NCBI GenBank assembly: GCA_018263395.1
Contig: JAANXF010000006.1
Span: forward strand, 1 to 63,861
Length of the DNA: 63,861 bases
Reading direction: 5' to 3'
Source: Methanonatronarchaeales archaeon
GTDB lineage: Archaea > Halobacteriota > Methanonatronarchaeia > JAANXF01
The notes below the pieces were generated by a model, which worked only from the letters and a program-made list of their open reading frames with translations, had not been told where the DNA came from and made no database searches. Shown here in pieces: positions 54,477 through 63,861 of this stretch. The position numbers were made by a program, and so were the translations under genes. The stretch's first letter is position 1. Every line of letters starts with the position of its first letter.

Positions 54477-54952
54477 ATGTTCTCCGAGAGGAAGGTCTCC
54501 ATCCTGAGGGGCCTGAGGGAGGAGCACCTCCTGGCGGTCCTGATGACCGCGATACTGGCCGTAGGGGGCTGCGGCTGATGGAGGGAGCGGCAGAGGGTCG
54601 AGATAGCAGACCGGATGTTCCAGGATATGGGGGGCACGGCACCGACCCTTCGCGTACCTTCTCTACACGTTCCTCGCCGCCCCGGCGAGGGGTCGAGGTG
54701 TTACCTGATCCCCCAGAGGTACCGGGGGGACGGAGCACGTCCACGAGCCGGTCTCGGGTCGCCGGGGCCGAGGAAGTGAAGGGGCGTTCAGACTTCTCGA
54801 AGTCGAAGGTCAACCAGGTGGCCGACAGGCTGGGGGACCGGGGCATCGTTTACCGGGAGCCGCAGGGAAGGACCTGCAGGGTCTACCCCGGCGAGATGGT
54901 CAGGGCAGCTCGACGGCTCGGCCTGAACCCGTACACGCGGGCGGTGGGATGA
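54477..54952 (+). pseudogene. Degenerate winged-helix regulator next to copA
   Basis: ATG 54477 opens a frame (MFSERKVSILRGLREEHLLA, then a hydrophobic LMTAILAVGGCG) that stops after 33 codons. Another frame covers 54578-54952 and ends with a convincing winged-helix end: GRSDFSKSKVNQVADRLGDR followed by GIVYREPQGRTCRVYPGEMV. The middle contains fragments in different frames (VEIADRMFQDMG; AYLLYTFLAAP). I interpret it as a membrane-associated or wHTH regulator broken by several indels. Its end abuts the copA stop. Confidence 0.45.
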
Positions 54953-57499
54953 TTACCTCCAGAGCCTGTAGACGGGTCTATAATCCGTGTCGGGATCGTA
55001 CCCCCCGAACAGCAAACTGTTAATAAGGACCGAGACACTGGAGAACGCCATCGCCCCTGCTGCCAAAACGGGCTGGAGGAGGCCGAGGGAGGCCAGCGGG
55101 ATCATGGCCATGTTGTAGCCGAGTGCCCAGAACAGGTTCTGCCTGATTTTGCTCAGCGTTCCACCCGAGATCCTGATGGCCTTCACGACGTCCAGAGGGT
55201 CGCTCCGCATCAAAGTGACGTCGCCTGCCTCGATTGCGACGTCCGTGCCGGCCCCTATCGCTATTCCGACGTAGGCCTCCGCGAGGGCCGGGGCGTCGTT
55301 CACGCCATCCCCCACCATGGCGACCCTGCGACCGCTGGACTGCATCTCTTTAACGACGTCGACCTTCTCGTCCGGCAGGACCTCGGCGAGGACGTTCTTC
55401 TCCGGGATCCCGACCTCCGACGCCACGGCCCGGGCCGTCCGCTCGTTGTCTCCCGTCACCATGAAGACCTCTAGCCCCCTCCGCTCCATGGATTCTACGG
55501 CATCCCGCGAGGTGGGTTTCACGGCGTCTGCGTCCGCCACGACGCCTACGACCTCCGCGTCCACGGCGACGAGCATGGCGGTCTTTCCCTCGTGCTCCAG
55601 CCTCCTGAGCGTACCCTCGTGGGACGCGGCCTCGACGCCCTCGTCCCGCATCAGCTTCCTGTTCCCGACCAGTACCTTTCTCCCGTCGAACGAGGCCCGC
55701 ACCCCGTGGCCGGGCACGCTCTCGAAATCCGAAGCCTCCCAGAGGTCCAGCTCACGCTCCATTCCACCCTGAACGATTGCGCGGGCGAGCGGGTGCTCGG
55801 AACCCCTCTCCGCCGATGCGGCCAATCGAAGGACCTCCTCCTCATCGGACGAGTTCAGGGGAACCACGTCGGTCAGGACCATTCTGCCATCCGTGAGGGT
55901 GCCGGTCTTGTCCAGCACGACGGCGTCCACGTCCCGGACGCGCTCCAGCACGTCCCCTCCCCTGAACAGCACACCGTTCACCGCGCCCAAGGACGTCCCC
56001 ACCATCGTGGCGGCCGGGGTGGCGAGGCCGAGGGCGCACGGACACGCGATTAGGACTGCGGACGCGAACACGACGACGGAGAACTCGAGAACGGAGAGAC
56101 CTCCCGCCGCGACCGGTCCGCCTCCGACGAGCCCCCACAGGGGGAGGGCGTCCACGACGCCGCCCAGCTCCGCCGGGAAGACGTACCACAGCAGGCCCCA
56201 GATGAAGGCGTTAGCGATGACGGCCGGGACGAAGTAGGCGGAGACGCGGTCCGCGAGGCGCTGTATCTCGGGCTGGCGGGCCTGAGCCTCCTTCACGAGC
56301 CTCACCATCTGCTTCAGCGCCGTCTCCTCCCCGACCCTGGTCGCCTCCACCTTCAGGACGCCTTCCTCGTTCACGGTGCCCCCTATCACCTCGTCGCCAA
56401 CCCCCTTCCCGACCGGGACGCTCTCGCCGGTCATCATGGACTCGTCGACGGACGACCTTCCCTCGACTATAGCGCCGTCGGTCGGCACCTTCCCCCCGGG
56501 CCGCACGAGCATCACGTCCCCGACCTTCACCTCGTCGAGCGGTACCTCCCTCTCCTCTCCATCCACCAGTGTGGCTGAGGGTGCCTCCATCTCGAGGAGG
56601 CTCCGGAGGGCGGCCCCCGCCCGCCCCTTGGCCCTCGCCTCCAGCCAGTTGCCCGCGGTTATGAAGACCAGGATGAGTGCGGCGGTGTCGAAGTAGAGCC
56701 CTCCGGCGAGTAGCCCGAAGAGCACCATCACCGAGTAAAGGTAGGCCGTGGAGGAGCCGAGCGCGATGAGGACATCCATGTTGGCGCGACGGTTGTTGAC
56801 GAGGGACTTCCAGGAGTTCCTGTAGAACTCGTACCCGAGGACGGCCTGAACCGGCGTCGCGAGCAGGAGCTGTAACCAGGCGGATTCGACGCCGAAGAGC
56901 TCCCTCGGCACCAGGAGCCTGTACTCTGCTGGCATGAAGAACCATTCCCCGGAGGCGAGGAAGAGGGTGGGGAGAGCGAGGGCGGCTCCGAAAAGGACGA
57001 GCCTCAGCCGTCTCTGCACCTCCGCACGTCTCGCGTCCTCCAGTCCCTCCTCCTCTGGAGCTCCCTCTCCTCCTCGGACCGGCGTGTATCCCGCCTCCTC
57101 TACGGCCGCGTAAAGCTCTTTGAGCCCCACGGCGGCGGGGTCGTACTCGACGGCCGCCTCATCCGTCGCGAAGTTTACGTCGGCGTCGATGACCCCGGGT
57201 ACACTTCTCAGCGCGGCCTCGATCGTCTCGGCGCAGGAGGCGCAGGACATATCTGTGATGCCAACTGTCGCCCTGGCGCGCTCCGGGGAGTATCCGGCCT
57301 GTTCCACGGCGCCGTATATCTCGGCGAGGGAGACCTCTGCGGAGTCGAACTCCACGGTGCCCTCATCGGTTGCGAAGTTCACCTCGGCCTCCACCACTCC
57401 TTCGAGGCGGTCGACGGCGTCCTCTATCGAGGAGGCGCAGGAGGCGCAGCTCATCCCGCCTATCGGTATCCTCACCCTGTTTCTCTCCGTCACTGGCAA
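54953..57499 (-). CDS. copA: Copper-translocating P1B-type ATPase
   Basis: Up to 848 residues. Two N-terminal heavy-metal domains with [20 protein letters not shown] and [20 protein letters not shown]. Eight membrane helices with the metal-site CPC in [15 protein letters not shown], actuator [12 protein letters not shown], phosphorylation [16 protein letters not shown] motif SEHPLARAI and hinge [19 protein letters not shown]; the C-terminal YN and MxxSS motifs ([25 protein letters not shown]) indicate Cu+ export. TTG 57499 or, with better ribosome-site spacing, GTG 57493. A palindromic site lies 130 bases upstream. Confidence 0.95.
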
Positions 57500-57628: not shown

Positions 57629-57655
57629 GCTATATATCGAAATAAGATATATAGC
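57629..57655. promoter_or_regulatory. Operator copy A: perfect 10-bp palindrome
   Basis: GCTATATATC and GATATATAGC are perfect inverted repeats separated by GAAATAA. It lies between copA (minus) and the broken ferredoxin gene (plus). The same half-sites with the same 7-base gap occur at 59611, 61982 and 63197. Confidence 0.75.
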
Positions 57656-57730
57656 CAGAGTAATAAACCCATCGGGAATCGGGGTAGGGTCCACCACCTC
57701 GTTTTAAGACGGAGAGGGGCGACAGCAAGC

Positions 57731-58003
57731 AAGAACATTCTGATAGAATTCGACCGAGAGCCGTGTATCGGGGACTGCCTCTGCGTGGACCAGGACCCTG
57801 ACCATTGAGAGCCGGGGGGCGACGGCAAGGCAGGTCCTCGTGGGAGGAGAAGAGGAGGAGCCCGGCGTCTACGTCTTTACGGACGAGGTTGACGAAGAGG
57901 GCGTCGAGGACGCGGTCGCCGCGGAGACGTTTGCCCGGTGCAGATAATCAACGTGAAGGACCGGGAAACCGGGGAGTACCTCCACTGGGGATTCGAGCGG
58001 TAG
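57731..58003 (+). pseudogene. Frameshifted ferredoxin
   Basis: Three frames give consecutive pieces of one ferredoxin: NILIEFDREPCIGDCLCVDQ followed by DPDH and a stop; then VLVGGEEEEPGVYVFTDEVD and EGVEDAVAAETF; then CPVQIINVKDRETGEYLHWG and FER with a stop at 58003. Cys spacing C-x3-C-x-C...CP is that of a single-cluster archaeal ferredoxin. A TATA-like TTTTAAGA at about 57702 precedes it, but no ordinary start codon does. At least two indels. Confidence 0.65.
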
Positions 58004-58048
58004 AAAGTGGCGGAGGACCCAATACCTGAGGTACGGACAGATGTGGCT

Positions 58049-59422
58049 TCAGCCGGTCTCCGGCTCTGCACGGCCGTCCTCCATCGCTCGGGGAAGGAAC
58101 CTCTCGGGATCCCTCTCGAACGCGTCTCGGCATGGTTTCGAGCAGAAGCTGTACTCCCCGCCCCCGTATTTCGCGGAGGGGCCGTCGCCGATCTTCATCC
58201 CGCAGACCGGGTCCCGTTCCCCTTTGGAGTGCAGCCCTCGACGGTACGCGAGGAGCAGAAGGCCCGAGAGGGCGGCGGCGAGGGCGTTCAGGTAGAAGGT
58301 GTAGTTCAGCTCGAAGTAGGTCCGCTCCGTCGCGGTCGTTCCACCGGCCAGGTCCGGCACGATTCCGAGGGCGTCGAAGAGCAGCTCCATGAGGAACCCG
58401 GTGAACGCCATTGTGACGAAGAACACGCCCAGGATGTACAGCATGACCCTCCAGCCGTAGTACTTCCGGTACACGTTCAGGACTGGGATCGTGATGAGAT
58501 CGGAGTAGACGAAGGCGATGACGCCGGCGAACCCTATGCCGCCGCTCCAGAGTGCCACGGCGAAGGGGACGTTGCCGATGCTGCCGACGAAGCTCAGGAC
58601 GGCTATCGCCGTCCCCACGAGTGCGTTCTCCGCCGTCACCAGGAGTTCGTCTCCTTCGAGGAAGAGGGCCTCCCACACACTCTGAGGGACGTACACGATG
58701 ACGAAACCAGAGACGAGGAACCCGGCGACAACGTCCCTGTAGATCATGGACCACTCCCTCCGGTACCTGTTTCCCAGCCGGAACCACCCTCCCCTTGACA
58801 GGATCTCCTCGCGCAGCCCTCCGCGGCCGGCCCGTCTCTGCTCGTACGCCTCCATGCAGCCCTTCGAGCAAAACCTCAGGGTCTCACCCTCGGCCTCCAG
58901 GGAGAACTCGTCCCTCCCCTCCATGCCGCAGGTCGGGTCCTCGGAGGTTCCCTCGGCCTTCTCCCGCCCGTTCAGCTCCTCCCTCGCCCGTGCGAAGAGG
59001 GGCTCCGGGAGGGTGAAGTGGACGATGACGGCCATGACCGCTATGAGGACGAGTCCGCCGAGGAGCTCGGCGGCGAGGAACTCCCAGCCCAAGAGGAGCA
59101 GTATCATCAAGCCGAGCTCTACGATGAGGTTCGTGGAGGCGAACATGAAGGTCAGGACGTTGACAGGATGGGCACCCTTCTTGAACAGGCCCTTCCCTAT
59201 GGCGGTGGCTCCGAAGCTGCATCCGCTACTCGCAGCACCGAAGGCCGTCGCCCTCAGCACGTCCGGCAACCGCTCCTCGCCCAGCACGGCTGCCATCCGC
59301 TCCTTCGACACGAACTCCTGGACGAAGCTCGTGACGAAGAGGCCGAGGACTATGGCCCACGTGGCGGTCCAGAGGAAGCCGAGACCGATCCGCAGGGCCT
59401 CGAAGACTCCGGCGAGAGGCAT
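58049..59422 (-). CDS. DUF318 (ArsP/SO_0444-type) permease with two YHS/TRASH domains
   Basis: 457 residues from ATG 59422. First permease half: FLWTATWAIVLGLFVTSFVQ, FGAASSGCSFGATAIGKGLF, VNVLTFMFASTNLIVELG. Then a YHS domain (DPTCGMEGRDEFSLEAEGET, FCSKGCMEAYE), the second permease half (RDVVAGFLVSGFVIVYVP; LSFVGSIGNVPFAVALWSGG) and a C-terminal YHS domain (DPVCGMKIGDGPSAKYGGGE, YSFCSKPCRDAFERDPERF). DUF318 permeases export Cu/Zn or organoarsenicals; the metal here is unknown. A longer upstream frame is the YHS mini-gene out of frame. Confidence 0.85.
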   Translation of the reverse strand: MPLAGVFEALRIGLGFLWTATWAIVLGLFVTSFVQEFVSKERMAAVLGEERLPDVLRATAFGAASSGCSFGATAIGKGLFKKGAHPVNVLTFMFASTNLIVELGLMILLLLGWEFLAAELLGGLVLIAVMAVIVHFTLPEPLFARAREELNGREKAEGTSEDPTCGMEGRDEFSLEAEGETLRFCSKGCMEAYEQRRAGRGGLREEILSRGGWFRLGNRYRREWSMIYRDVVAGFLVSGFVIVYVPQSVWEALFLEGDELLVTAENALVGTAIAVLSFVGSIGNVPFAVALWSGGIGFAGVIAFVYSDLITIPVLNVYRKYYGWRVMLYILGVFFVTMAFTGFLMELLFDALGIVPDLAGGTTATERTYFELNYTFYLNALAAALSGLLLLAYRRGLHSKGERDPVCGMKIGDGPSAKYGGGEYSFCSKPCRDAFERDPERFLPRAMEDGRAEPETG

Positions 59423-59444
59423 GCTTTCAGGTGGGCCAAGCCCC

Positions 59445-59600
59445 CTAAGAAAGCTTCCAAGTGAATACGCGCTCCGGGTCCTTCTCGAATTTCTCCTTGC
59501 ACGCAGTGACGCAAAAATAGTATGTCTCTCCACCGTACTCAAACTGGTCCGCCGCTGTCTCCGGGTCCACATCCATTCCACAAATCGGGTCGGTAGCCAC
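59445..59600 (-). CDS. YHS/TRASH mini-protein 1
   Basis: 51 residues from GTG 59600: [20 protein letters not shown], then [20 protein letters not shown] and [12 protein letters not shown] single YHS metal-binding unit (CGM...FC...C). It starts 11 bases after operator copy B and precedes the permease gene in the same direction. A close paralogue is at 63044. Possibly a metal chaperone or sensor-like donor. Confidence 0.88.
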
Positions 59601-59610
59601 GCACAATCAC

Positions 59611-59632
59611 CTATCGAAATCAGATATATCAG
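59611..59632. promoter_or_regulatory. Operator copy B
   Basis: CTATC-GAAATCA-GATATATCAG: TATC and GATA half-sites with a 7-base gap whose first five bases (GAAAT) equal those of copy A. Lies 11 bases before YHS mini-gene 1 on one side and 35 bases before the decayed PadR gene on the other. Confidence 0.7.
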
Positions 59633-59666
59633 CAGGAAGAATAAAGTTTGTCGAGATTCATATACA

Positions 59667-59830
59667 ACCGACGAGCGGCGATACCGGGTCCGAGGTCAGG
59701 GACATCGTGTTAACCTATGGGTGGTCCTCTCCCCCTGAAAGGGAAGGACCCCGGCTACGAGCTCATAGACGGGATCGAGGGGACCACGGGGAAGAGGCCC
59801 AGCACCTTACAGGTCCACTTATTCCTGTAG
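59667..59830 (+). pseudogene. Decayed PadR regulator (paralogue of 63254)
   Basis: Frame 1 reads TDERRYRVRGQGHRVNLWVV and LSP then a stop at 59738. A second frame reads DPGYELIDGIEGTTGKRPST and LQVHLFL then a stop at 59830. The intact protein at 63254 has EELRVRNVVNLWILLSLW and GYELIKEIEDATGRRPSASQ at the same places. No start codon is left and the C-terminal TRASH part is absent. The upstream 37 bases also align with those upstream of 63254. Confidence 0.75.
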
Positions 59831-59917
59831 GATTCGGAGTACGGAGGCCCGTGAGGTAGAGGAGACCGGGGCCCGGGGAAAAGATCTACTCTAACGCGCC
59901 AAAAGCCCCTTCCAAAC

Positions 59918-59975
59918 GCATCTCTCGAAGAGAGATGCTTGAACAGGTCTCTCCAGAGGAGAAGACCTGTGAACC
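59918..59975 (+). repeat. Hairpin pair upstream of tnpB remnant, related to the rps4e-rpl5 array
   Basis: Hairpin A: GCATCTCTC-gaa-GAGAGATGC (59918-59938). Hairpin B (59937-59975): GAACAGGTCTCTCC, then GGAGAAGACCTGTGAACC, the same outer ACAGGT/ACCTGT stem, inner CTCTCC/GGAG stem and GTGAACC end as the units at 35185-35373. Likely an end structure of an IS200/IS605-type element. Confidence 0.75.
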
Positions 59976-60093
59976 AGAGGCCGTTAGGCCGACGGTTTGG
60001 TGGGGGATGAATGGCGCGAACCGTATCTGGCATGACACGGCAAAGATGTATTCGGGAACTGGAATAGATGATAGCTATCGGTACACCACGGAG

Positions 60094-60213
60094 ATGACGC
60101 AGCTTTCCTACAACCTGAAGTACCTGAAGTACCGACTCTACCCCTCCAAGCAGCAGAAAGCAGAGTTGGAGAAGCATTTGGAGCTTCACAGACAGGTCTA
60201 CAATCACTCCTTA
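60094..60213 (+). pseudogene. Truncated IS605-type TnpB N-terminus
   Basis: About 40 codons from ATG 60094: MTQLSYNLKYLKYRLYPSKQ followed by AELEKHLELHRQVYNHSL, the N-terminal helix-turn-helix region of TnpB/OrfB (the family starts with a similar YRLYPxxxQ...L..H....YN motif). Similarity ends abruptly at 60213, 18 bases before the ccdA stop; the RuvC nuclease domain is missing. No TnpA nearby. Confidence 0.8.
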
Positions 60214-60230
60214 GGGGGGCCGGGAGGATG

Positions 60231-60884
60231 TCACAGCGTCGTGAAGTAGAGGTACATGAGGTAAATTCCAACCCCCATCATGACGACAGCCGACAATTGC
60301 TCTATTCTTCCCGTGTACCTCCTCAGGTAATCGAAGTAAACATCCTTTCCTCCCGCCATCGCCAGCGTAATCGCCATCATCAATAAACCCATCGAAGAGG
60401 CGTACACGAGGAAGACCGTGGCCACGGACCCAAGGTCCCCGAGAGTGGTCGCGTAGGTGACGAGGCCGACGAAGACCGGCAGTACACACGAGACAGCCGC
60501 GACAGCGTATAGAACCCCGAAAGCAAAGAAACCCGGAACCCCTTTACTCCCGGGGACGGGGATGTCGACGGTCAGAGATGGTTTCCTGCCCAGGAGCATA
60601 GTCGTTCCGAGGAGAACGAGGATCACGCCCACGACGACCTCCAGCTTGGGGATGTGTGGCGTCAGGGCGCCGCCGAGGAAGTAGACCAGTATCCCCATTA
60701 AGAGGAACACGCCAATGTACCCCAAACTCGTCGAGGCACCGGCCACCAGTCCCCTGCCGTAACCTATCCCATCCTCCGCTTCGAGGTAGTAAGAGACGTA
60801 GGCGGGTAGCATCGGGAAGCCGCAAGGGGAGAAAAAGGTGGCCAGCCCCGCACCGCCGGCAAAGATCAGGGTCTCCAGACCCAC
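60231..60884 (-). CDS. ccdA: CcdA/DsbD-type thiol-redox membrane protein
   Basis: 217 residues with six membrane helices. Redox Cys pair in ATFFSPCGFPMLPAYVSYYL and AVAAVSCVLPVFVGLVTYAT (each Cys followed by a Pro nearby, as in CcdA). Moves reducing equivalents across the membrane, plausibly to the TlpA-like protein encoded just upstream on the same strand. Its 3' 127 bases (60247-60373) recur exactly at the end of the window. Confidence 0.9.
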   Translation of the reverse strand: MGLETLIFAGGAGLATFFSPCGFPMLPAYVSYYLEAEDGIGYGRGLVAGASTSLGYIGVFLLMGILVYFLGGALTPHIPKLEVVVGVILVLLGTTMLLGRKPSLTVDIPVPGSKGVPGFFAFGVLYAVAAVSCVLPVFVGLVTYATTLGDLGSVATVFLVYASSMGLLMMAITLAMAGGKDVYFDYLRRYTGRIEQLSAVVMMGVGIYLMYLYFTTL

Positions 60885-60915
60885 CAGGCGTCCTCACCCC
60901 TCATTCTCATCGAAG

Positions 60916-61575
60916 TTAGAGCCCGAGGGGAAATATGGATCCCTCAGACTTCGCCTCGGACTTCGCGTCCTCCACGAACCTCTCGACCGCGCTGGAACTC
61001 ATGTACCCCACGGCCCTTGCGCGAATCTTTCCTTCCGGATCCACGAGGACGAAGGTCGGGAGGCCCTGGACCCCATACTCCACGTAGATTGACGAGTCCG
61101 GGTCTATCAGGTGGGGCCAGCCAGCGTCGTTTTCCCTCGCGAACTCCTGGAAGGATTCGACGTCGTCGCCCTCGTTCGAGATTGTCAGGAACTCCACGTC
61201 GTCCGGCTTCGACTCCTGATAATACCTATCCAGGATGGGCGCCATCCGCTGACAGGTCGTGCACCAGGAGGTGGAGAAATCTATGAGAACCCATTCTCCA
61301 CGGTGACCCGACAGCGAGTGCTCCTCCCCGGTGAGGACCTCTCCGGCGGCGAAGTCCGGGGCCACGGGAGCGTCTCCGCCTACCTGGGAGAGGGAGCCGC
61401 TGAAAAACAGGGCGAGTATAAGCACGCCGAGAGCGACTCCGATGAGGAGCGCCTTTTTGGTGCGGACGCGTCCCACGGAAACCTCCGCCCCGCACTCCGA
61501 GCAGAACTTTGCTTCTTTGGACACGTGGGCTCCGCACTCCGCACAGGCCGATTCTCGCGTGCCCTTCAGCGCCAT
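60916..61575 (-). CDS. Membrane-anchored TlpA/ResA-like thioredoxin with zinc ribbon
   Basis: 219 residues from ATG 61575. N-terminal cytosolic zinc ribbon CAECGAHVSKEAKFCSECGA, one membrane helix (LLIGVALGVLILALFFSGS), then a TlpA-type thioredoxin domain with the active site DFSTSWCTTCQRMAPILDRY and the cis-Pro in YGVQGLPTFVLVDPEG. Reductant or disulfide handling outside the cell together with CcdA. A CATATT TATA-like site lies just upstream of the ATG. An upstream in-frame ATG at 61608 exists. Confidence 0.88.
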   Translation of the reverse strand: MALKGTRESACAECGAHVSKEAKFCSECGAEVSVGRVRTKKALLIGVALGVLILALFFSGSLSQVGGDAPVAPDFAAGEVLTGEEHSLSGHRGEWVLIDFSTSWCTTCQRMAPILDRYYQESKPDDVEFLTISNEGDDVESFQEFARENDAGWPHLIDPDSSIYVEYGVQGLPTFVLVDPEGKIRARAVGYMSSSAVERFVEDAKSEAKSEGSIFPLGL

Positions 61576-62112
61576 CTCGACAACCCCCGGTCCGAATATG
61601 GGGGCCAACCCGGAGAAGCCCCGTTCCTGAGGTGAAGGCCGTTTCCGCGCTCCCGCTCCAACTCCTCTGATCGAGCCCCTCCCGACCGAGCGGGAGAATT
61701 CACCACCTCCGAAGCCTCACGAACCCTTCCCCTGCCTCCGACGCATATGGGGGGGCTATCTATTACGTACGAGTGCGCCGGCCTGAATATGGAAAAGGGA
61801 CCTGAACGGCGATCCGGCCTACGGGCCGGATAACGGAGACACTCCCACCCCGACTCGGAAAACCTCGGGATGTCCCCATTCATGCTCTCACGTGGCCTCA
61901 GGCACCTCCCTTGTTCGGCATCCCAGAGGGCAGCCGTCGACACCGTTCCAGCCGTGTTCATGCTACTAATCGCCTCCCCATCTATCTGAAATAGACATAT
62001 CTCATATAGCATATATTTTGGCTTTCTACAATCCGAATACCCATATATCGACCGCCTTATTGTTCCCCGGGTTCGTCCCTCTCCCGTCTTCCTTGCTCCA
62101 CATATCGCGTCA
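61576..62112. other. Non-coding stretch with hairpin and orphan operator
   Basis: About 540 bases. Open frames on both strands lack family features. Contains a perfect 8-bp hairpin ATCCGGCC/GGCCGGAT at 61812-61831 and operator copy C at 61982-62001, followed by strong AT-rich promoter-like sequence (CATATATTTTGG) that points to no intact gene. A gene may have been lost here. Confidence 0.45.
61982..62001. promoter_or_regulatory. Operator copy C (no intact gene beside it)
   Basis: CTATC-TGAAATA-GACATATC: same half-sites and 7-base gap as copies A, B and D with one mismatch (GAC for GAT). The nearest genes are 400 bases (TlpA-like) and 110 bases (3' end of the rhodanese gene) away. Confidence 0.6.
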
Positions 62113-62511
62113 CTACCTCGTCGTCGGAAGCCCCTCCGAGGTCCATCTCTCGTAGCCCCCGATCACGTTGTAGACCTCGGTGAAGCCCCTCTCAGCCAGC
62201 AACTCGCTCGCCTTCACGCTCCTCCGCCCGGTCTGGCAGTAAACCACGATTGCACGGTTCCTCGGCAGCTCGTCCCACCTCTCGGCGAGGGTGTTCGGTC
62301 GCTCTACTGGGATGTTAACCGCGTTTGGAACGTGGCCGCCCCTAAACTCTCCTACGGTCCTGACGTCGAGAAGCAGTGCACCCTCATCGACCAGTTCCAG
62401 TACCCTCTGAGGAGGGACGTTGCTGTACCTTGCTACTCCGGCGTTCTGGTAGAAGGAGACTCCCATACCAGCCAGCATGAGGAACGCTAGGACCACGTAT
62501 CCCTTCCTCAC
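62113..62511 (-). CDS. Membrane-anchored rhodanese
   Basis: 132 residues from GTG 62511: N-terminal membrane helix (GYVVLAFLMLAGMGVSFY), then one rhodanese domain with GALLLDVRTVGEFRGGHVPN, AVNIPV and the active-site loop VVYCQTGRRSVKASELLAER. Sulfur or thiol transfer, probably outside the cell. GTG overlaps the stop of the upstream zinc-ribbon gene (GTGA). The open frame to 62709 is spurious. Confidence 0.88.
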   Translation of the reverse strand: MRKGYVVLAFLMLAGMGVSFYQNAGVARYSNVPPQRVLELVDEGALLLDVRTVGEFRGGHVPNAVNIPVERPNTLAERWDELPRNRAIVVYCQTGRRSVKASELLAERGFTEVYNVIGGYERWTSEGLPTTR

Positions 62512-63018
62512 GTCGCCACCCCCGATCCGTCTCCGGCAACGGGCTCCCCGCACGTGCCGCAGAAGCTCGCCCCTGGGTGAAGGTCTGCGCCGCATCGCGG
62601 GCAGGTTGCCGTCATCTTGGCGCCGCAGGAGGGGCAGAAATCTCCGACGGAGCCCGCACCGCATTTCTGACAGAACCGTCCCCCTCACGACCCATCGAGG
62701 GACCTTCACCGCGCATCGAAGGGAACATAGCTCCCAGGATTCCGAGCTCTCCCTTAATGGAGTGCACGAGCACGGCCACCATCGCCAGGGCTACTCCTAC
62801 GGCAAGGTAGACGTCGGAAAGAGAGTCGTCGCCTCGTCCTTCTCTGACCGGCTCTGGCAAGGGTTCGTACCCGACTCCGAGTTCCACGCCCCTCTCGAGC
62901 TCTTCGGCGGTGACCAGGAACTCCGAGTGCCCCTGCTGGTTGCCCATCAGGCCCCGTATCTGCAACGGTCCCTGGAGGTCGAACTGGTTATCGCTAGCTG
63001 TGGTGGGTGGGTTGGCAT
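62508..63018 (-). pseudogene. Frameshifted zinc-ribbon membrane protein
   Basis: Good ribosome site GGAGGTGA and ATG 63018 (MPTHPP) lead into a frame that must shift to give FDLQGPLQIRGLMGNQQGHS, then EFLVTAEELERGVELGVGYE, a membrane helix DVYLAVGVALAMVAVLVHSI and MGREG. After a second shift in a run of five G near 62685 it reads RFCQKCGAGSVGDFCPSCGA and CPRCGADLHPGASFCGTCGE, a double zinc ribbon ending at 62508. Adding one G to that run restores the second junction. Function unknown. Confidence 0.6.
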
Positions 63019-63043
63019 ATCTTCACCTCCCCCGGCTCCAGAA

Positions 63044-63184
63044 TTACAGAAACCTCTCCGGGTTCTCCACGAATCTCTCCCTGCACGCCGTCGCGCAGAA
63101 GTGATACGTTTCCCCCTCATACTCGTACTCGCCCGCCGCCGTACCGGGCTCAACCTCCATCCCACAAACCGGATCTGTGGCCAT
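63044..63184 (-). CDS. YHS/TRASH mini-protein 2
   Basis: 46 residues from ATG 63184: MATDPVCGMEVEPGTAAGEY, EYEGETYHFCATACRERFVE and NPERFL. Close paralogue of the 51-residue protein at 59445. Starts 13 bases after operator copy D; divergent from the PadR-TRASH regulator. Too short for most gene callers. Confidence 0.88.
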   Translation of the reverse strand: MATDPVCGMEVEPGTAAGEYEYEGETYHFCATACRERFVENPERFL

Positions 63185-63196
63185 ATATAGAGTCAC

Positions 63197-63216
63197 CTAT
63201 CCCTATATGATATATC
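63197..63216. promoter_or_regulatory. Operator copy D
   Basis: CTATC-CCTATAT-GATATATC, same half-sites and gap as the other copies, between divergent YHS mini-gene 2 and the regulator gene. GGTAATAAATC at 63221-63231 is the TATA box for the regulator and lies directly beside the site, consistent with autoregulation. Confidence 0.7.
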
Positions 63217-63253
63217 GATACGGTAATAAATCTTGCCGACGAAGTAACTGCAG

Positions 63254-63685
63254 ATGGAGGACGAGGAGCTCCGGGTCAGGAACGTCGTCAACCTCTGGAT
63301 CCTGCTATCTCTCTGGAGGAACGGGTCCCACGGATACGAGCTGATAAAGGAGATAGAGGATGCGACGGGCAGGAGGCCCAGCGCGTCCCAGGTGTACCCC
63401 TTTCTCCAGAAGCTGGAGGCGAACGGTCTCGTAAGTGCCGAGGAGACCGGTGGCCGGGGAAAGAAGGTGTACGCCCTCACGGAGGAGGGGAGGACCTTCG
63501 TCGAGTCAAAGATGGAGATGTTCTCCTCCGTGATCTCCTCCACTGTCGAGAAGGACCTGACCGTGTGCGCTCACTGCGGATGCAAGGTGTATCAGGGAGG
63601 CCACCGGGAGACGGTCGGAGGGGAGGAGCTCCGATTCTGCTGCAGCCACTGCGCGGAGTCGTACAGACGGGCGATGCGAGACTGA
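63254..63685 (+). CDS. PadR-type regulator with C-terminal TRASH metal-sensing domain
   Basis: 143 residues. N-terminal PadR winged helix: VVNLWILLSLWRNGSHGYEL, IEDATGRRPSASQVYPFLQK and LEANGLVSAEETGGRGKKVY plus ALTEEGRTF. C-terminal TRASH/YHS-like zinc/copper site: VCAHCGCKVYQGGHRETVGG and ELRFCCSHCAESYRR. Such fusions sense Cu, Zn, Hg or similar ions through the cysteines and control DNA binding with the wHTH. Probable regulator of operators A-D. Confidence 0.9.
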   Translation: MEDEELRVRNVVNLWILLSLWRNGSHGYELIKEIEDATGRRPSASQVYPFLQKLEANGLVSAEETGGRGKKVYALTEEGRTFVESKMEMFSSVISSTVEKDLTVCAHCGCKVYQGGHRETVGGEELRFCCSHCAESYRRAMRD

Positions 63686-63718: not shown

Positions 63719-63861
63719 TCAAAGAGTCGTGTAATAGAGGTACATGAGGTAAATTCCAACCCCCATCATGACGACAGCCGACAATTGCTCTATTCTTCCC
63801 GTGTACCTCCTCAGGTAATCGAAGTAAACATCCTTTCCTCCCGCCATCGCCAGCGTAATCG
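63719..63861 (-). CDS. Second ccdA copy, 5' part outside window
   Basis: The 3' end of a CcdA gene; only the last 47 codons are seen. From 63735 to the window end it is identical, base for base, to 60247-60373 (127 bases). The last codons differ (MYLYYTTL against MYLYFTTL) and use different synonymous codons, so it is a separate, older paralogue partly homogenised with the first, or a repeat at which the assembly ended. Confidence 0.85.
   Translation of the reverse strand, partial: ITLAMAGGKDVYFDYLRRYTGRIEQLSAVVMMGVGIYLMYLYYTTL

Follow-up and report, generated by a model that had tools for sequence, protein, structure and literature searches.

A probable PadR-TRASH operator at copper and YHS genes of a Methanonatronarchaeales archaeon and of other archaeal phyla

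Introduction

The regulons of uncultured archaea are, to our knowledge, almost never known. The stretch of DNA analyzed here (hereafter the window; 63,861 nucleotides of contig JAANXF010000006.1 from a Methanonatronarchaeales archaeon, assembly GCA_018263395.1) carries an island of copper-export and YHS-domain genes in which the spaced palindrome TATC-N7-GAYATAT recurs between genes. Which protein would bind these copies, and which genes would it control? A preliminary description, made from the letters of the window, had proposed a PadR-TRASH regulon covering copper export, YHS proteins and thiol-redox genes.

Results and Discussion

Genes of the Island

The recognizable genes are as follows.

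54953-57499, minus strand: copA, a heavy-metal P-type ATPase with a CPC motif and two HMA domains
58049-59422, minus strand: ArsP_1-family permease with a C-terminal YHS domain, closest to SO_0444 Cu/Zn efflux, though under the cut-off; start inferred by eye
59445-59600, minus strand: small YHS-domain protein (YHS PF04945, 3.2e-16); GTG start inferred by eye
59690-59890, plus strand: decayed padR-TRASH copy (tblastn matches with internal stops), divergent from the YHS-permease unit
60231-60884, minus strand: CcdA/DsbD-type membrane protein, syntenic in locus L041; probable, weakly supported regulon member
60916-61608, minus strand: zinc ribbon plus TlpA/ResA-like thioredoxin; probable, weakly supported regulon member
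63044-63184, minus strand: YHS-domain protein of 46 aa (PF04945, 4e-16); start inferred by eye
63254-63685, plus strand: PadR-TRASH regulator of 143 aa, with a winged helix-turn-helix (wHTH), a long helix at 77-101 and a Cys-rich TRASH domain at 105-142

Several remnants lie among these genes. A truncated TrmB/MarR-like winged-helix ORF (54578-54952, below curated cut-offs) is convergent to copA, and the copA-permease interval holds pieces (57730-58000; CIGDCLCVDQ) resembling the remains of an iron-sulphur protein. The N-terminal fragment of an IS605-type TnpB (OrfB; 59935-60249, PF12323) sits between the decayed padR and ccdA. The end of ccdA (60231-60373) is repeated at the right end of the window (63719-63861; 143 bp, 97% identical), where it is probably a second ccdA copy at the contig break.

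The Palindromic Element

All four copies claimed in the preliminary description are present, 1-6 bases from where it had placed them, and all four keep the 7-base gap and lie outside recognizable genes. Exact matches to TATC-N7-GAYATAT begin at 57632 (minus strand)/57635 (plus strand), 59612, 61983 and 63198. The four copies thus give five matches, because the 57.6 kb copy reads on both strands; 100 dinucleotide shuffles of the window gave none. The N7 core of the motif stands as first written, and the true palindrome is wider, TATATC-N7-GATATA. Scored over its 12 positions, it marks out four candidate operators, listed here without strand.

57633-57651: operator 1, 12/12, copA promoter; rank 1 with the external matrix
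59610-59628: operator 2, 10/12, promoter of the unit of YHS and ArsP-like permease-YHS genes
61981-61999: operator 3, 10/12, in a region of the minus strand that resembles a promoter and faces Trx/ccdA; rank 2 with the external matrix
63196-63214: operator 4, 10/12, between the divergent YHS (minus) and padR-TRASH (plus) genes

The external matrix was built from 28 sites in the class of genome G105 (Bathyarchaeia-type), none of them from the window, and it placed the four sites at ranks 1, 2, 3 and 4 among all window positions. A scan of the 1.17 Mb assembly (78% complete) found little scatter of TATC-N7-GAYATAT, which is essentially confined to the island: there are just two further exact sites, C8:22125 and C8:40529, and the reversed pattern has no match anywhere in the assembly. 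The C8:40529 site is a one-strand match inside an apparent coding sequence. The other corresponds to a strong TATGTC-N7-GATATA (G000:C8:22126-22144; L001, L274) in the A/T-rich spacer upstream of the 16S rRNA, and is perhaps chance, perhaps a real target.

Two of the copies share a history. The segments at 59.49-59.88 kb (59490-59880) and 63.07-63.46 kb (63070-63460) form a duplication of ~400 bp, 67% identical, which reads in sequence as a unit of YHS, operator and padR whose first padR has decayed. Copies 2 and 4 (59.61 and 63.20 kb) are therefore paralogous and the four copies are not independent; one ancestral operator accounts for both, which leaves about three independent instances. The leader at 61.6-62.06 kb gives no sign within the window of having come from a mobile repeat, as it is single copy there.

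Placement at Promoters

Inspected by eye on the minus strand, TTTATTA/C precedes the sites of copA, of the small YHS gene and of the YHS-permease unit, each of which begins 16-17 nt after it; at operator 1 the minus-strand TTTATTA begins 16 nt upstream. The 61.98 kb copy, which had been described as lying in an empty stretch, likewise has an A/T-rich, TATA-like element on the minus strand, from which it starts at a distance of 16-18 nt (by eye). We revise this copy to a minus-strand promoter-operator-like region with Trx/ccdA ~370 bp off. The 63196-63214 site precedes the start of the divergent padR-TRASH gene by ~40 bp, and a shared A/T element (TTTATTA/TAATAAA) lies between. A site between TATA and the gene start, or abutting TATA, normally blocks initiation. 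The position of the sites after TATA places them over the expected transcription start, such that a bound protein would block initiation, and it is from this position that we infer repression.

The PadR-TRASH Protein

TRASH-domain metalloregulators combine a helix-turn-helix (HTH) with a C-terminal TRASH domain of the pattern C-x19-22-C-x3-C. The product of the gene at 63254 has a PadR domain (PF03551, 1.5e-17) at 63.8 bits against a curated cut-off of 27, and a TRASH match (PF24273, 4.3e-5) that at 24.0 bits falls short of its cut-off of 27. Its tail, C108-x20-C129-x3-C133, fits the TRASH pattern. In the alignment of PadR-TRASH proteins Cys105, Cys129, Cys130, Cys133 and His132 are invariant, and Cys108 is nearly so (at least 90%). 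The AlphaFold model (pLDDT 90) consists of a wHTH, the long helix 77-101 and the tail; as a predicted monomer it has the PadR fold, with helix 77-101 as the C-terminal helix through which PadR-family proteins dimerize. The best Foldseek matches in the PDB are the PadR proteins Rv3488, TA0346 and LmrR, together with RosR.

The preliminary description held this to be the only intact DNA-binding protein of the island. The claim stands in a narrower form: it is the sole protein found in the assembly, 78% complete, that is both DNA-binding and TRASH-like, and the truncated TrmB-like winged-helix ORF at 54578-54952 has to be set beside it. The assembly has four intact TRASH/YHS-like matches, all of them within the island, and CopA and/or YHS proteins adjoin most orthologous PadR-TRASH loci.

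Orthologous Loci

The window served to define the motif, before any orthologue was read. The 100 relatives searched included only two other genomes of the window's class, and full-length PadR-TRASH relatives came from Bathyarchaeota, Thorarchaeota, Hermodarchaeota, a DPANN MAG and the same-class genome G001. Upstream of most of them is TATATC-N7-GATATA or, in Thor- and Hermodarchaeota, TATATC-N6-GATATA. Among held-out padR-TRASH loci from the class of G105, 22/22 carry at least 10/12 positions at N7 (shuffles, 0.23); of the held-out loci from the Asgard phylum, 12/24 have a site at N6 against 1.4 in shuffles. At many Bathyarchaeia-type loci the site abuts the TATA box. When gaps of 0-14 bases were scanned in the held-out set, perfect sites appeared at N6 and N7 only. 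Some Asgard-phylum and DPANN orthologues have no recognizable site right upstream of padR, and the DPANN genome G101 has zero perfect sites genome-wide. The Bathyarchaeia-type loci L182 and L202 likewise have none right upstream of padR; the genome's site is at YHS/copA instead. Several loci of the Bathyarchaeia type (L204, L207; G452:C9:6560-6593; G543:C104:6520-6553) have a pair of overlapping head-to-tail operators with one GATATATC at the center common to both, at a period of 15 bases.

The genes beside the sites are of the same kinds as in the window. The 15 regulator-carrying genomes hold 24 perfect elements, spread over 12 genomes, against 3 reversed controls, and 20 of the 24 are at padR-TRASH, copA/copB, YHS, YHS-CopA, an ABC operon with YHS, or an ArsP-YHS permease. 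In the Asgard genomes all N6 sites (11/11) are at such copper/YHS/padR genes and none of the N7 sites (0/3). The same-class genome G001 has a site at padR-TRASH and a perfect site at its ArsP-YHS permease (L144); the latter promoter is the orthologue of that at 59.61 kb, so the site is kept where the preliminary description had proposed to look for it. One Asgard N6 site (G110:C118:18275, L142) precedes an operon for an FtsX-like ABC permease, in which there are a match to the YHS domain and a fragment of HMA; this operon is possibly a new regulon member.

The palindrome could instead be a generic AT-rich, TATA-like promoter element, conspicuous in a GC-rich genome through chance and duplication. 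It is indeed AT-rich, it overlaps promoters, and two of its copies are paralogous. Against this, 250 genomes drawn from the phylum of G105 show no enrichment (~130 perfect sites against ~145 reversed controls, summed by hand), in contrast to the 24 against 3 of the PadR-TRASH genomes. The conserved N6/N7 gap also argues against it, as do the held-out tests, unless the orthologues share promoters through very recent descent. We rejected this explanation on the difference in enrichment, and regard it as most improbable.

With and without the Regulator

The class of G105 allowed a comparison by presence of the regulator in 251 genomes, 170 of which have copA-like ATPases. The 73 genomes with PadR-TRASH hold 47 perfect N7 sites against 3 controls, and the 178 genomes without it hold 34 against 14. 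Sites were at copper genes in 5/17 of the loci fetched from PadR-TRASH genomes (by coordinates, ~23/47), and near copA or YHS in 0/17 of the sites examined in genomes without PadR-TRASH.

These counts bear on whether the operator belongs to a different copper regulator encoded elsewhere, with padR-TRASH merely another of its targets. The assembly, at 78% complete, leaves room for such a gene, and there is the truncated TrmB-like wHTH ORF at 54578-54952. However, no examined site is at copper genes in the related genomes without PadR-TRASH, no second TRASH-like regulator was found in the assembly, and the spacing of the operator tracks the PadR-TRASH tree across phyla. We therefore think another regulator decidedly unlikely.

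The last of these points comes from a maximum-likelihood tree of PadR-TRASH proteins, in which a single supported branch divides the N6 from the N7 operators (98/94; 0/500 shuffles as low). The window and G001 rows are on long branches and their exact place in the tree is unsure. At L213, L215 and L220, which are loci of the Asgard phylum, the regulator groups with the Bathyarchaeia type and the operators are N7. In these sequences, then, operator spacing tracks the tree of the regulator and not the host, a pattern that binding by some other protein would not readily account for. Comparison of sequences supports three parts of the proposal: the motif, the set of genes beside it, and the coupling of spacing to the regulator.

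Proposed Mechanism

The same signal occurs at the same kinds of genes in distant PadR-TRASH archaea and its spacing follows the regulator tree; the palindrome is thus very probably the docking site of the neighboring PadR-TRASH regulator. We consider it highly likely that the four copies are operators of the 63254 protein, acting as a metal-released repressor of copA, YHS, permease and padR genes, and probably of Trx/CcdA. Of the regulon first proposed, copper export, the YHS genes and padR itself are borne out by the held-out comparisons; the thiol-redox part is weaker, with one site in the window and the syntenic Bathyarchaeota locus L041. Trx-CcdA genes come after padR-TRASH in L041 and L190.

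The mode of action that we infer includes dimeric binding, repression, Cu(I) and derepression. A PadR-TRASH dimer would set its two PadR winged helices on the half-sites of TATATC-N7-GATATA, downstream of TATA in the window or abutting it at many Bathyarchaeia-type loci, and would there keep TBP, TFB and RNA polymerase from assembling. Binding of a metal, which is most likely Cu(I), by the cysteines of the TRASH domain would then cause the protein to release DNA, and release would allow expression of padR itself, of copA, of the YHS protein(s) and the YHS/ArsP permease, and probably of Trx/CcdA. Cu(I) is probably the sensed metal, judging from the copA/YHS genes and the TRASH cysteines.

Comparison with Known Systems

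CopT/CopR of Sulfolobus and VNG1179C of Halobacterium are archaeal TRASH-domain copper regulators with Lrp-type or other HTH domains, unlike the PadR domain here. CopR of P. furiosus is alike in its HTH and C-terminal TRASH domain, its place beside copA, its semi-palindromic site in a divergent promoter and its copper regulon (PMC7830388). The CopR paper nowhere mentions PadR and likens the octamer to LrpA (PMC7830388). The protein studied here has a PadR domain instead, and TATATC-N6/7-GATATA is downstream of or abutting TATA, in contrast to the CopR site TTNNCAWWWTGNNAA, which is upstream of the BRE and from which CopR acts as an activator (PMC7830388).

CopR raises the question of whether PadR-TRASH may be an activator or dual regulator as well. 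CopR, also an HTH-TRASH protein, activates copA transcription in P. furiosus (PMC7830388), and the padR gene's own site is upstream of its presumed TATA element. The other sites, between TATA and the gene start or abutting TATA, differ in this from that of CopR, upstream of the BRE (PMC7830388), and we consider activation unlikely.

Among PadR proteins, LmrR binds drugs, not metal. LmrR and bcPadR1/2 resemble the 63254 protein in the PadR fold, in a pair of inverted half-sites whose spacing suits successive major grooves, and in autoregulation beside an export gene (PMC3506622), but they are without a TRASH domain. The canonical PadR operator is ATGT-N8-10-ACAT (PMC3506622) and not TATATC-N6/7-GATATA; it is a usual trait of the family and no strict criterion. 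RosR of Halobacterium is an archaeal wHTH protein with the same PadR-like fold (PDB 6qfd/6qh0). It is an oxidative-stress regulator of different genes (PMC3443676), and its solved chains, of ~110-116 residues, lack the TRASH tail of the 63254 protein.

Implications

As read from sequence, the system pairs a distinct operator with a regulator whose DNA-binding domain is of the PadR type and whose sensor is a TRASH domain. Among the open-access papers searched, none combines "PadR" and "TRASH domain." The findings suggest that in these archaea a PadR protein, and not one of the CopR type, controls copper. In several archaeal phyla, Asgard archaea among them, the sequences allow regulator, operator and targets to be read as one set, with a gap that changes with the protein, and concrete probes and proteins for gel shift are thereby in hand. 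We think it likely that PadR-TRASH is a widespread, horizontally transferred family of archaeal copper repressors with its own operator code, TATATC-N7-GATATA, of which one Asgard-phylum clade has shifted to N6 together with its operators. If true, this would be a natural series of regulator/operator co-evolution across Bathyarchaeia, Asgard archaea and the lineage of the window.
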